Part shown: piece by piece, positions 3,881 through 7,699 of the stretch
Position numbering within the stretch: position 1 is the first letter of the stretch
Layout of the letters: each line of letters opens with the position of its first letter
Assembly: GCA_030583865.1 (NCBI GenBank)
Contig: CP129479.1
Coordinates: 632,744 to 696,743 of the forward strand
DNA length: 64,000 nt
Reading direction: 5' to 3'
DNA from: Thermodesulfobacteriota bacterium
GTDB taxonomy: Bacteria; Desulfobacterota; GWC2-55-46
Notes under the pieces: model-generated
The model's database searches: none
The model's input: only the letters and a program-made list of their open reading frames with translations
What the model was told of the DNA's origin: nothing
Position numbers and translations under genes: made by a program

Positions 3881-4432
3881 ATGCCGGGCTTCGCAATCGG
3901 GGAATTCTTTTCAATGGACCCGGCCCCGGCGGACAGGCCGTTCCTCGAACAGAAGAGAAAGCCGGGCGATATAAAGAAAGACAGGTACGGCCTCCCGGAC
4001 CCCACTCCCGACGTAATCTCCCTTACGCACCTTCCAAACGACCGATACGGCTTCGTAGACTGGGCCGAGGCCATCTCCTCCGGCATAATCTCGCCGAAGT
4101 CGTCGATAGACGGCTCTCCCGCGAGGCTCGCTCCCGCCGACAGGGAGAGGTTCGACGGCGACGTCCTCTTGAGGTCCAAAAAGGAATTCATGCCGGACGT
4201 GCTATTCCCGCATTCGGCCCACAACGAATGGCTCAAGTGCTCCACCTGCCACCCCCGCATATTCGCGAAGAAGGCCGGCGCGAGCCGCATTACGATGACG
4301 GGGATATGGAAAGGCAGGTTCTGCGGAGTATGCCATGACAAGGTGGCCTTCCCGACCAGGAACTGCTTCAAATGCCATTCGGTCCCAAGAGAGGCCGGGA
4401 AAGCGTTCAAAGGGACCGGGCAGGTGCGCTAA
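3881..4432 (+). CDS. c(7)-type triheme cytochrome domain protein
   Basis: About 183 residues with three haem-binding CxxCH motifs in the C-terminal half: CSTCH, CGVCH and CFKCH. The segment FPHSAHNEWLKCSTCHP followed by GKFCGVCH-like spacing fits the triheme c(7)-type cytochrome domain of deltaproteobacterial periplasmic electron carriers. The ATG at 3881 yields no proper signal peptide. The upstream frame from ATG 3834 reads MLKSSLTTRSSL, and a one-base shift near 3868 would join it to LACMPGFAIG to give a normal export signal. The signal may therefore be frameshifted, either in nature or in the assembly. The stop overlaps the next start (TAATG), so it is translationally linked to the LuxR-type genes. 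Confidence 0.75.
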   Translation: MPGFAIGEFFSMDPAPADRPFLEQKRKPGDIKKDRYGLPDPTPDVISLTHLPNDRYGFVDWAEAISSGIISPKSSIDGSPARLAPADRERFDGDVLLRSKKEFMPDVLFPHSAHNEWLKCSTCHPRIFAKKAGASRITMTGIWKGRFCGVCHDKVAFPTRNCFKCHSVPREAGKAFKGTGQVR

Positions 4433-5016
4433 TGCATCAATATGACTACCTCTCCAAAAGCGAGCTGGTAAAGATACTCGAACTGATCGAGCAGTCGCTG
4501 AAGTGCGGCAGCCCGGACGACGTAAGAGACCTCATCATGTCGGCCCGGCAGCTCTTCGAAGCCGAGTTCGCCGTATGCGGCCTGCTTGAAGCGGGTTTGC
4601 CCCACATCACGGGTTTTGTGAACGGCAATTATCCGGACGAATGGATAAGCAGATACATGGCCGAGGGCCTTCAGAGGCACGACCCGGTCGTAAGGTTCCA
4701 TTCGAGCTACGCGACTACCCAGATCTGGAAGGACGTCTTCAGAAAGTACGGCGACCCCGGGGCAAGGGAGCTTCTGAAGGACGCAAGCGACTACGGCCTG
4801 AAACACGGCATATCGAGCGCGATCTACGTGCCGGAGGCGGACAAGGTCGCGATAGTCACCTTCTCGGACAGGCAAGACAGGTTCAAGGGACGACACAAGA
4901 AGATAATCGACATCCTGAGCGCGCACCTTAACGGTGCGATAGCAAGGTCGGTCCTGAGCCCCGAGACCGGGGCTGGAGCCGGGACCACGGTTCCTCAACT
5001 GCTTCCTGGTATCTGA
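4432..5016 (+). CDS. LuxR-type autoinducer-binding domain protein lacking HTH
   Basis: A 194-residue paralogue of the N-terminal half of the adjacent LuxR protein (LSKSELVKILELIEQSLKC against FSKRELSEILGIIQETLKC). The residues that line the acyl-homoserine lactone pocket in TraR/LuxR proteins are retained: W71, Y75, D84-P85 and W99. The protein ends at the interdomain linker and has no LuxR helix-turn-helix; the next gene starts 15 bases later, so no HTH remnant remains. Natural HTH-less relatives such as TrlR act as dominant-negative partners of TraR, and a similar role here is inference. The start overlaps the cytochrome stop codon. Confidence 0.8.
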   Translation: MHQYDYLSKSELVKILELIEQSLKCGSPDDVRDLIMSARQLFEAEFAVCGLLEAGLPHITGFVNGNYPDEWISRYMAEGLQRHDPVVRFHSSYATTQIWKDVFRKYGDPGARELLKDASDYGLKHGISSAIYVPEADKVAIVTFSDRQDRFKGRHKKIIDILSAHLNGAIARSVLSPETGAGAGTTVPQLLPGI

Positions 5017-5031
5017 CACCTGAAAGGGGGG

Positions 5032-5772
5032 ATGCGGCAGATGTGCTACAAGAACTTTTCAAAAAGGGAATTGTCGGAGATACTCGGGATCATCCAGGAG
5101 ACCCTTAAATGCAAGTCCGAGTCCGACATAGTGTCGCTTACGGGGAAGATAAAGGAACTCGTGTACGCCGACATGAGCGTATGCGCGTTGGGCGAGACTG
5201 CCACGGGCAGCCTGCTCAAGGTGGTGAACCATAACTGGCCGGACGAATGGGCTGGGATTTACACATCCGAGCAGCTCTGCAAGCGCGACCCTGTTTTCCT
5301 TTTCAATATCAGCCACCAGCAGGCCTATACCTGGTCAGAGGCGATGCGCAATTTTCCTGGCAAACCAGGCGAGGACGTAATGAACAAGGCCTCGGAGTTC
5401 AGGCTCAAGTACGGCCTCTCAAGCGGCATAAGCTCGGACGGACCAAAGGGGAGCATATTCTCATTCGCGGGAGACCGCGACAGGTTCACCAGCCACCACC
5501 TGATGATACTCGACATCCTGACGCCGCACCTTCATCAGGCGCTTGTACGGATATGCGGGAGCCGGTTCAAAGCCGATGCGCCTCTTTCGCACAGGGAAAG
5601 GGAGGTGCTGAAATGGGTCAGGGAGGGGAAGACGAACTGGGAAATATCAGTGATACTCAGCATAAGCGAACGCACGGTCAAGTTCCATATCCAGAACATA
5701 GAAAGAAAGCTCAATGCGGTAAACAAGGCGCATGCGATAGCGATTGCGCTCGATAGCGGTTTGCTGGCATAG
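5032..5772 (+). CDS. luxR: LuxR-family quorum-sensing transcriptional regulator
   Basis: A 246-residue two-domain regulator. The N-terminal autoinducer-binding domain keeps the signature residues W73, Y77, D86-P87 and W101. The C-terminal GerE-type helix-turn-helix begins LSHREREVLKWVREGKTNWE and continues ISERTVKFHIQNIERKLN. A strong ribosome site (AAAGGGGGG) precedes the ATG at 5032. It should bind an acyl-homoserine lactone and control promoters bearing lux boxes. It lies directly after the HTH-less paralogue. It converges with luxI, their 3' ends overlapping by 62 bases. Candidate operators are in the luxI-radC gap at 6423-6442 and 6490-6511. Confidence 0.88.
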   Translation: MRQMCYKNFSKRELSEILGIIQETLKCKSESDIVSLTGKIKELVYADMSVCALGETATGSLLKVVNHNWPDEWAGIYTSEQLCKRDPVFLFNISHQQAYTWSEAMRNFPGKPGEDVMNKASEFRLKYGLSSGISSDGPKGSIFSFAGDRDRFTSHHLMILDILTPHLHQALVRICGSRFKADAPLSHREREVLKWVREGKTNWEISVILSISERTVKFHIQNIERKLNAVNKAHAIAIALDSGLLA

Positions 5773-6388
5773 AGATTACGGACATCCATTCATAATAGTC
5801 AGGCCTCCTGGCCGAGGCCTCCTTTTCGAACCTGCGCCAGTCCAGCATGCACACGGCGGCCTTCACGCCGTCGGGCATGGTTTTGAAATCCCCTACGGCT
5901 TCCACCGGCAGGCACCCGAGCCTCAGGATCCTATAGCACCTGTTGTCTACGACCATAGCCGAATACCTTACGCCGTTCATGATGTTCCAGTGATACAGGC
6001 CCTTGTAGAGAAGGAGGGTCATGTTATGGCCGCCCTTGTTCGAGCGGAACTCCTTCCTCACGCATAGTCTCGTTATCTCGGCGACATCAGGCGAGCGCTC
6101 TATCGTTTTGCCGTTTGGCAGAAGGGCGGCGAACTCCCTGTCTATCATGAACGGATTGGGCGGAAGTATCATCCGGAGGCTCCCGGCCAGGGTCATGTCT
6201 TCCCTGAAAACTCCGATCGAGTATGAGAACGCGTCATAGGGGTCCCTCTCCAGGCCGTCCGTGGCCTCAGGCACCCATTTGAGCTCCTCCGCGAAGACCT
6301 CGTGGCGGAGCTTAAGCGCCGCCTCGAACTCCTCCGGAGCTGAAATGGTCTTTATTATGAACTCGTCTTCCTCGAATATCAGTTCCAT
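5711..6388 (-). CDS. luxI: LuxI-type acyl-homoserine lactone synthase
   Basis: A 225-residue GNAT-fold autoinducer synthase. The residues invariant in LuxI proteins are present with near-canonical spacing: R28, F32, W38, D49, D52, R72, E104 and R107 (LRHEVFAEELKWVP, ERDPYD, GSLRM, AEITRL). The family makes acyl-homoserine lactones from S-adenosylmethionine and acyl-ACP. The last ~20 residues are encoded opposite the HTH-coding end of luxR, and they fit the family poorly. AAAAAGGGGG lies immediately before the ATG. An exosortase-associated acyltransferase of the same fold is possible, but the paired LuxR genes favour LuxI. Confidence 0.82.
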   Translation of the reverse strand: MELIFEEDEFIIKTISAPEEFEAALKLRHEVFAEELKWVPEATDGLERDPYDAFSYSIGVFREDMTLAGSLRMILPPNPFMIDREFAALLPNGKTIERSPDVAEITRLCVRKEFRSNKGGHNMTLLLYKGLYHWNIMNGVRYSAMVVDNRCYRILRLGCLPVEAVGDFKTMPDGVKAAVCMLDWRRFEKEASARRPDYYEWMSVISMPANRYRAQSLSHAPCLPH

Positions 6389-6422
6389 GCCCCCTTTTTA
6401 GCAGGAAGTGGCGGGGCCATGT

Positions 6423-6442
6423 AACTGTCAGGTATTGCAGTT
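6423..6442. promoter_or_regulatory. Candidate lux box 1
   Basis: The 20-base sequence AACTG-N10-CAGTT has the CTG-N10-CAG core of LuxR-type operators. Its centre is about 44 bases before the luxI start codon. Only the five-base arms are symmetric, so the match is modest. Confidence 0.4.
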
Positions 6443-6464
6443 CACTTTTATGCGGCGTAGTTGT

Positions 6465-6537
6465 AAAATAAAAAGTTTAATTTCGTGGACCCCTGTACCA
6501 AAGTGCAGGGGGACCTGGCGGGTAAATATAGTATAAT
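6465..6537. promoter_or_regulatory. Divergent luxI/radC promoter region with strong lux-box-like palindrome
   Basis: The palindrome CCCCTGTAC-CAAA-GTGCAGGGG occupies 6490-6511, with nine-base arms, one mismatch and a CTG-N10-CAG core. A -10 match, TATAAT, lies at 6532-6537 on the plus strand, putting the palindrome centre near -43 of a start site around 6544. That is the spacing of the classical lux box. On the minus strand TATTTT (6470-6465) gives a similar distance toward luxI. No good -35 hexamer is present on the plus strand, which suits an activator-dependent promoter. Function is inferred. Confidence 0.55.
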
Positions 6538-6612
6538 GCCGCCGTTCCGGTTCAGAGAGGGCAGGGCAAAACCCGGCATTTGAGGCGTGCAGGCATCCTG
6601 AAAGGAGTTTGT

Positions 6613-7326
6613 ATGGACGCTGATTACAGGAGGTGCCGTGAGACCGCTTTCAAAGCGCTCGTCGGTCCTTACGGGCTCGCGGAGTTCGGCAGGGAGCGCC
6701 TTCTGGAGCTCATGGTATCGTACGCCGCGCCCAGGAAAGACGCGCGGGCCGTCACCGACAGGCTCCTCAGCAGGTTCAGGGGCTTAAGGGGCGTGCTCGA
6801 CGCCTCCCCGGAAGAGCTTGAGGCCGAGGGCTCGCTGGGCAACGACGGCATAGTGCTCGTAAAGCTCTTCAAGGAGATGGCTGGCGCCTACCTAAAGGAG
6901 CGGACGATCGGGCAGGAAGCCGAGGCCGGCATGGCCGACCTCCTCGACTACCTTTGCCTTACTCTCTCCGGCGAAAGGGTCGAGAAGTTCCTCGCGGTAT
7001 ACATGGGGTTCAGGAAAGAGATAATCTCCATAGACGTTCTGCACGAGGGCACCATAAACCAGACCGTCGTGTATCCCAGGAAGGCCATTGAGATGGCCTT
7101 CAGGCACAACGCCCGGTCGGTCATCTTCGTCCATAACCACCCGAGCGGCGACCCTACGCCGTCGAGCCAGGACAGGCAGCTTACACGGGTCCTGGACAGG
7201 GCCGCGGCCGCGGTCGACATACTTGTTCTTGACCACCTGATAATCGGCAGGGACAGAAACTTCAGCGCCAGGGAGAACGGCTGGTCGATGGGGCTTCCCT
7301 TCAACTGCATCGCCGCAAGCCCCTGA
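6613..7326 (+). CDS. radC: RadC-family JAMM/MPN-domain protein
   Basis: A 237-residue protein of the RadC (DUF2466) family. A helix-hairpin-helix-like N-terminal region (LLSRFRGLRGVLDASPEELE) precedes the JAMM-type metal site HNHPSGDPTPSSQD near residues 177-190. The molecular role of RadC is unsettled; the name comes from a DNA-repair locus later assigned elsewhere. AAAGGAG six bases before the ATG at 6613 fixes the start over an upstream TTG. Its upstream region carries the lux-box-like palindrome, so it may be a quorum-sensing target. A family B repeat begins at the stop codon. Confidence 0.88.
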   Translation: MDADYRRCRETAFKALVGPYGLAEFGRERLLELMVSYAAPRKDARAVTDRLLSRFRGLRGVLDASPEELEAEGSLGNDGIVLVKLFKEMAGAYLKERTIGQEAEAGMADLLDYLCLTLSGERVEKFLAVYMGFRKEIISIDVLHEGTINQTVVYPRKAIEMAFRHNARSVIFVHNHPSGDPTPSSQDRQLTRVLDRAAAAVDILVLDHLIIGRDRNFSARENGWSMGLPFNCIAASP

Positions 7327-7470: not shown

Positions 7471-7699
7471 TTAAGGAAGGTCTGATTAATTCGCAAACGC
7501 TGTCATTCTGAGCGAAGCGAAGAATCTCGTATTGGGAAATTCGGCAAGTTATGATTCTTATCTCGCCCGTCCTGGGGGCTCGACCCTCGGGCTGCCTCGC
7601 CAAGAGGCTCGGCATTCAATTTTTGCTGTCCTGCAAAAATCGTCGGTCGCTTACGCTCCCTCAGAATGACAAAAAAAGGAATTATCAGATCTTCCTTAA
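7471..7699. repeat. Family D inverted-repeat element with nested palindrome
   Basis: The ends are inverted repeats of about 20 bases, TTAAGGAAGGTCTGATTAAT on the left and ATTATCAGATCTTCCTTAA on the right, with one mismatch and one indel. Inside is a second inverted pair, GTCATTCTGAG (about 7501) and CTCAGAATGAC (about 7660). The motif GTCATTCTGAGCGAAGCGAA resembles a repeat widespread in bacterial genomes. No gene is inside. It looks like a MITE-like non-autonomous element. One copy was seen in this window. Confidence 0.65.

Follow-up and report, generated by a model that had tools for sequence, protein, structure and literature searches.

We studied the intergenic region between luxI, a predicted autoinducer synthase gene, and the divergent gene radC in a 64,000-nucleotide stretch (the window, to which positions without prefix refer) of a Thermodesulfobacteriota bacterium, whose genome, G000, is a single contig of 2,751,635 bases. 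Results of the sequence comparison confirmed, as a sequence observation, two conserved predicted LuxR-type operators in this region, and it is probable that they have separate jobs: the box proximal to luxI would serve luxI, and probably radC as well through a second promoter (P2), and the distal box would serve the main radC promoter. The two boxes share the lux box core consensus CTG-N10-CAG. The proximal box (AACTG-N10-CAGTT, 6423-6442; core CTGTCAGGTATTGCAG, 6425-6440) is likely to be the class II operator for luxI; it also faces a mirror-image -10 hexamer towards radC. The distal, symmetric box (CCCCTGTACCAAAGTGCAGGGG, 6490-6511; arms 6490-6498 and 6503-6511, 8 of 9 positions paired; core CTGTACCAAAGTGCAG, 6493-6508) is the likely class II operator of radC. 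An initial annotation of this DNA had placed a symmetric box and a second CTG-N10-CAG site at these same positions and proposed control in both directions; both sites are present as placed, and the sequence evidence supports two LuxR-type operators acting both ways.

Among 63 genomes from a single class of uncultured, Deltaproteobacteria-like bacteria, 29 had LuxI relatives at E <= 1e-20. These 29 plus L029 (E 4e-16, luxI in two pieces) made up the set of 30 luxI upstream regions; left out were L028 (genome G001, a broken luxI with mismatched first codons) and L030 and L031 (weak, GNAT-like matches), and L001 and L032 were duplicates of L002 and L009. The proximal box was present in all 30 regions, with TTAC after it in 28, and the core of the distal box in 26; the latter had one mismatch in L011 and was not found in L016, L026 and L027. 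Spacing between the boxes ranged from 58 to 80 bases, being 60 in 13 of the 26 regions. Chance does not account for the two boxes, as they are kept ahead of luxI in relatives with LuxI proteins 40-70% identical.

The bare core motif was rejected as evidence, as it showed no enrichment over shuffles in the window (10 seen vs 13.84 +/- 4.06). The 22-mer of the distal box occurred once in the 2.75-Mb genome, even allowing 3 mismatches, and the composite motif CTGT-N9-CAG-N22..24-TATAAT at two places (control, 0). A relaxed genome-wide box scan (1 mismatch) was useless alone, with 49 forward matches vs 57 in the reversed control; ten of its sites were inspected and two, 2495171 and 753393, were kept on account of a -10 with class II spacing, to which conservation was added later. 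Across 62 genomes, CTGTAC-N4-GTACAG matched in 24 and its control in 1. This palindrome also occurs at MerR-type regulator genes (L107 confirmed as MerR; L096 and L108 by likeness), which, like the ease with which CTG-N10-CAG arises by chance, would suit a reading of the boxes as operators of some other dimeric regulator or as chance palindromes. We consider that reading very improbable, given the conservation, the linkage to luxI and luxR2, the fixed -10 spacing and the lack of a box at unlinked radC genes (see below). The sites before MerR-type genes had no -10 at that spacing and were excluded from the lux targets, and the same applied to a site common to genus-g10 genomes beside a ligA-like gene (L092, L094, L098 and L100). 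Reading the palindrome as a hairpin or terminator was also discarded: no terminator was found and the luxI leader was not unusually stable (z -0.71).

For each box, matches to TATAAT were scored over all distances on either side and compared with 300 shuffles. Peaks at 23 bases appeared for the proximal box towards luxI (3.5 of 6), the proximal box towards radC (5.0) and the distal box towards radC (4.31), all of them exceeding the shuffle maxima (2.47, 2.93 and 2.62, respectively); the distal box towards luxI had no peak at 22-24 bases and peaked at 12 and 19. A strict test, which asked for TA...T with 4 or more of 6 positions matching at 22-24 bases from the box, was positive for proximal to radC in 27/30 regions, distal to radC in 23/26, distal to luxI in 6/26, which is background (other offsets: mean 4.6, maximum 20), and proximal to luxI in 0/30, the last owing to the absence of the final T from the luxI hexamer. 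In LuxI/LuxR systems the centre of the box lies about 42.5 bases ahead of the transcription start, according to the part of the source consulted (PMC7585371). As sequence geometry, -10 peaks 23 bases past the box correspond to the class II arrangement, in which the dyad covers the -35 position and the start follows about 42.5-45 bases further on.

The distal box likely belongs to radC as its class II operator. The -10 of the predicted main radC promoter, TATAAT (6532-6537, plus strand), implies a start at about 6544, relative to which the box centre (6500.5) lies at about -43, in agreement with the distance of about 43 bases initially proposed. RadC matches were found in 46 of 62 genomes, and 30 radC loci were compared, in counts that ignore relatedness. 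Linkage to luxI or luxR2 was seen at 21 of the 30; in 19 of these the box was intact and its -10 lay 22-24 bases away. The remaining two were degenerate: L113 is in G001, whose luxI and luxR2 are broken as well, and L118, in G024, has the single mismatch seen in L011. The box was absent at 9/9 unlinked radC genes, including a second copy in G007. Four genomes (G003, G021, G026 and G029) had no LuxI match at 1e-20 and kept the distal box and its -10, with luxR2 at 410-456 bases from radC; some of them are incomplete, but both flanking genes share one contig. At the luxI loci L002-L027, radC was the divergent gene within 1.5 kb in 19 of 26. The distal box was also kept beside other divergent genes (L012, L013, L019, L021, L022, L029 and L048-L050). 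By eye, some of the divergent genes that replace radC (L013, L016, L019 and L026) encode small proteins, or the ends of proteins, in which a GF..L....K stretch looks shared.

The arrangement first proposed was different: the symmetric box would activate two genes at once, luxI through a minus-strand TATTTT (6465-6470) and radC through TATAAT, and luxI would be damped by the second box, located in its leader. The TATTTT spacing does fit in the window, and the proximal box would lie within such a luxI transcript. Across relatives, however, the distance from the distal box to TATTTT was 14, 22 or 34 bases, so that the similar distance on the minus strand holds for this one sequence and is not conserved; likewise, the counts given above put the radC side of the symmetric box well over its luxI side, which is at background. 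The single-box loci L016, L026 and L027 retained the proximal position, not the distal one. As for damping, the second box stands at 30/30 luxI genes and has class II spacing to a TGnTA(AAAA) by the ATG, which is the geometry of an activator, although the proximal box may damp some upstream luxI promoter. The arrangement first proposed is, as a whole, improbable. The TATTTT is best read on the other strand as TAAAAT (6464-6469), because its distance to the proximal box is fixed while the spacing between the boxes varies.

Towards luxI, the proximal box faces a predicted extended -10, TGCTAAAAA (6395-6403, minus strand; hexamer 6395-6400), located 6 bases ahead of the ATG and missing the final T of TATAAT. 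A TGnTA at class II spacing from the box was found in 27/30 loci. The gap between hexamer and ATG was 6-8 bases in 25/30 loci, with a Shine-Dalgarno (SD) match there of 3 bases at most; in L016 an in-frame ATG lies 6 bases from the hexamer, which brings the leaderless geometry to 26/30. Mean entropies of luxI codons 2-12 were 0.73, 0.45 and 1.41 at the three codon positions (L016 excluded), and the maximum at the third position makes translation from this ATG credible. By this geometry the luxI mRNA would probably be LuxR-activated and leaderless, with its predicted start on or beside the ATG.

Towards radC, the candidate -10 of P2, TAAAAT (plus strand), is the reverse complement of most of TATTTT and lies 23 bases from the proximal box; a TA...T hexamer occupied exactly this distance in 27/30 loci. 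We also weighed whether the proximal box serves luxI only and TAAAAT, instead of being part of a promoter, is either an upstream element or an AT-rich site contacted by the alpha subunit of RNA polymerase. That the element is fixed to the proximal box would agree with this, as would the position of the distal box, which would fall inside a transcript starting there. Against it, the hexamer distance matches that of the radC -10 from the distal box, and the lone box of L027 has TATAAA at 23 bases towards radC; on balance we find the non-promoter explanation rather unlikely. The lone box of L027, with TGCTAATTC towards luxI and the TATAAA towards radC, is by its sequence the simplest form of a two-way switch.

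In the two-operator arrangement that we prefer, LuxR2 with its lactone would bind the proximal box as a class II activator. Leftward, luxI would be transcribed from TGCTAAAAA as a leaderless mRNA, giving luxI a positive feedback; rightward, the mirror-image -10 would probably start a second transcript towards radC. LuxR2 would also occupy the distal box, the putative class II operator of the main radC promoter. What the comparison shows directly is the sequences, how they are conserved, their fixed spacings, the neighbouring genes and the pattern in which genes were lost; LuxR2 binding, activation as opposed to repression, all the start sites, leaderless translation and the use of P2 are inferred.

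Several observations weigh against this arrangement. The P2 transcript would run into the distal box, and the AT-rich stretch between the boxes is in places also -10-like in the luxI direction. The loci compared are related, not independent, and radC was not the divergent neighbour in 7 of the 26 loci L002-L027. The strict test failed for the P2 hexamer in L026, L027 and L029 and for the distal hexamer in L019, L048 and L050, apart from its zero for proximal to luxI, where the hexamer lacks the final T in 29/30 loci. This missing T is the main doubt about the luxI promoter, which together with the leaderless mRNA is less firmly predicted than the radC promoter. Furthermore, L004, L014, L017 and L020, all of genus g6, had gaps of 21-22 bases and an SD of 5-6 bases; these SD-bearing exceptions probably go back to one evolutionary event.

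The gene arrangement in the window is as follows: luxR1 and luxR2 are on the plus strand, luxI is on the minus strand, convergent with luxR2, and radC is on the plus strand, divergent from luxI. The luxI gene (5711-6388) matched PF00765 (E 2.7e-18, over the curated cut-off), and its 3' end overlaps that of luxR2. The presumed activator gene luxR2 (5032-5772) encodes a full LuxR with a signal domain (PF03472, E 5.6e-16) and a GerE helix-turn-helix (HTH) domain (PF00196, E 8.6e-23), both over the cut-offs, and luxR1 (4432-5016; start codon uncertain) encodes the signal-binding domain without HTH, PF03472 alone being matched. The radC gene (6613-7326) matched PF04002 (E 1.6e-35) and is preceded by an SD-like AAAGGAG at 6601-6607. 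G000 has two Autoind_bind proteins, both encoded at this locus, and two RadC genes.

By its sequence, the locus appears to be LuxI/LuxR control in a variant form, with two boxes and radC as the divergent gene. It resembles the Vibrio fischeri-type lux box in the dyad of about 20 bp with CTG-N10-CAG, in its place beside luxI and luxR and in its position relative to the start. Here, instead, there are two boxes, luxI is apparently leaderless, the divergent gene is radC and not luxR, and luxR2 is convergent with luxI. In tra box I of Agrobacterium Ti plasmids, the section consulted reports that one TraR box drives the divergent traCDG and traAFB with class II geometry (PMC3907764). A single LuxR-type box between two divergent operons in that geometry is the likeness to the present locus; the latter differs in having an additional box for the divergent gene, and in that the synthase gene is itself a member of the divergent pair. 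The same section describes TrlR, an HTH-less TraR-like protein that blocks TraR (PMC3907764). Similarly, luxR1 carries a LuxR signal domain without HTH beside a full LuxR, but it differs from TrlR in being kept as a neighbour across several families of the class; by analogy, antiactivation by LuxR1 is putative. The HTH-less paralogue, with a closed reading frame, stood beside full-length luxR2 in 18 of 29 related loci scanned.

Regarding radC, in Vibrio cholerae QstR peaks lie near it, and it is not significantly induced by TfoX or QstR; in other bacteria it is competence-induced, yet dispensable for transformation where tested, according to the portion of the source consulted (PMC6237807). 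Unlike the radC of competence regulons, the one described here has its own lux box beside luxI, and by analogy a competence link for it is only a lead. Literature searches of titles and abstract starts found no description of a luxI-radC pairing or of a leaderless luxI. The guess of one operator is replaced by a map of two that is open to testing, and a conserved signalling locus of uncultured bacteria becomes tied to radC, a gene recurrent in competence regulons and of unsettled function. A leaderless luxI transcript under LuxR control would be unusual, as would a small RNA driven by a lux box (see below). Genomes that have no luxI yet retain the receptor gene and the operator would be a natural example of listening without speaking.

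Within the genus, the regulon probably extends to a structured small RNA and to a gene of the PEBP family. The second genome match of CTGT-N9-CAG-N22..24-TATAAT lies ahead of the candidate small RNA (G000:C1:2494997-2495135, minus strand, about 139 bases; L052, L104-L106 and L174), which has a long hairpin with a G-rich loop and an intrinsic terminator and aligns among G000, G001, G004 and G005. Covariation support for its consensus fold was slight, with two-sided changes in 2 of 36 pairs and an unfavourable covariation term (+0.81). Strong matches of the covariance model were confined to these four genomes; G002 had a weak match (E 4.5e-5), making 5 of 62 genomes, all of this genus. The G002 copy is preceded by CTGTCCCTGGGTACAG-N23-TATAAT. 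Searched against Rfam, three of the four small RNA loci gave no match except to tRNA. The PEBP-family gene (PF01161; L053 and L140-L146) had a box and a -10-like hexamer at 22-23 bases in 6/6 genus g1 genomes, and in G028 a box with a weaker hexamer. No box stood at the same place in the other 23 of 30 loci, 4 of which have a chance core elsewhere.

Pairwise identities between G000 and G005 were 91% for RadC, 44% for LuxI and 45% for LuxR2, and the LuxI of G000 was closer to that of G002 (63%) and of G019, of another genus (65%), than to that of G005. Within the genus, L002 compared with L023 and L024 gave about 90% for RadC and only about 44% for LuxI and LuxR2. By these values, signal-receptor (luxI/luxR2) alleles look as if exchanged between species. 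A broader and more tentative picture, which as a whole is possible but doubtful, is a small, class-wide quorum-sensing circuit with RadC as core output: LuxR2 would drive a leaderless luxI, radC through a single operator or two and, within this genus, the small RNA and the PEBP gene; the HTH-less LuxR1 would tune it; some species would have lost luxI, retain the receptor and the radC operator and answer only signals made by others; and luxI/luxR2 alleles, not radC, would be swapped. In this picture RadC would be an effector controlled by cell density, which would offer a handle on a protein of unsettled role. Beyond radC, at about 7499-7672 of the window, a segment with GTCATTCTGAGCGAAGCGAAGAATCTC and CTCAGAATGAC at its ends has, by eye, the look of a dispersed repeat.
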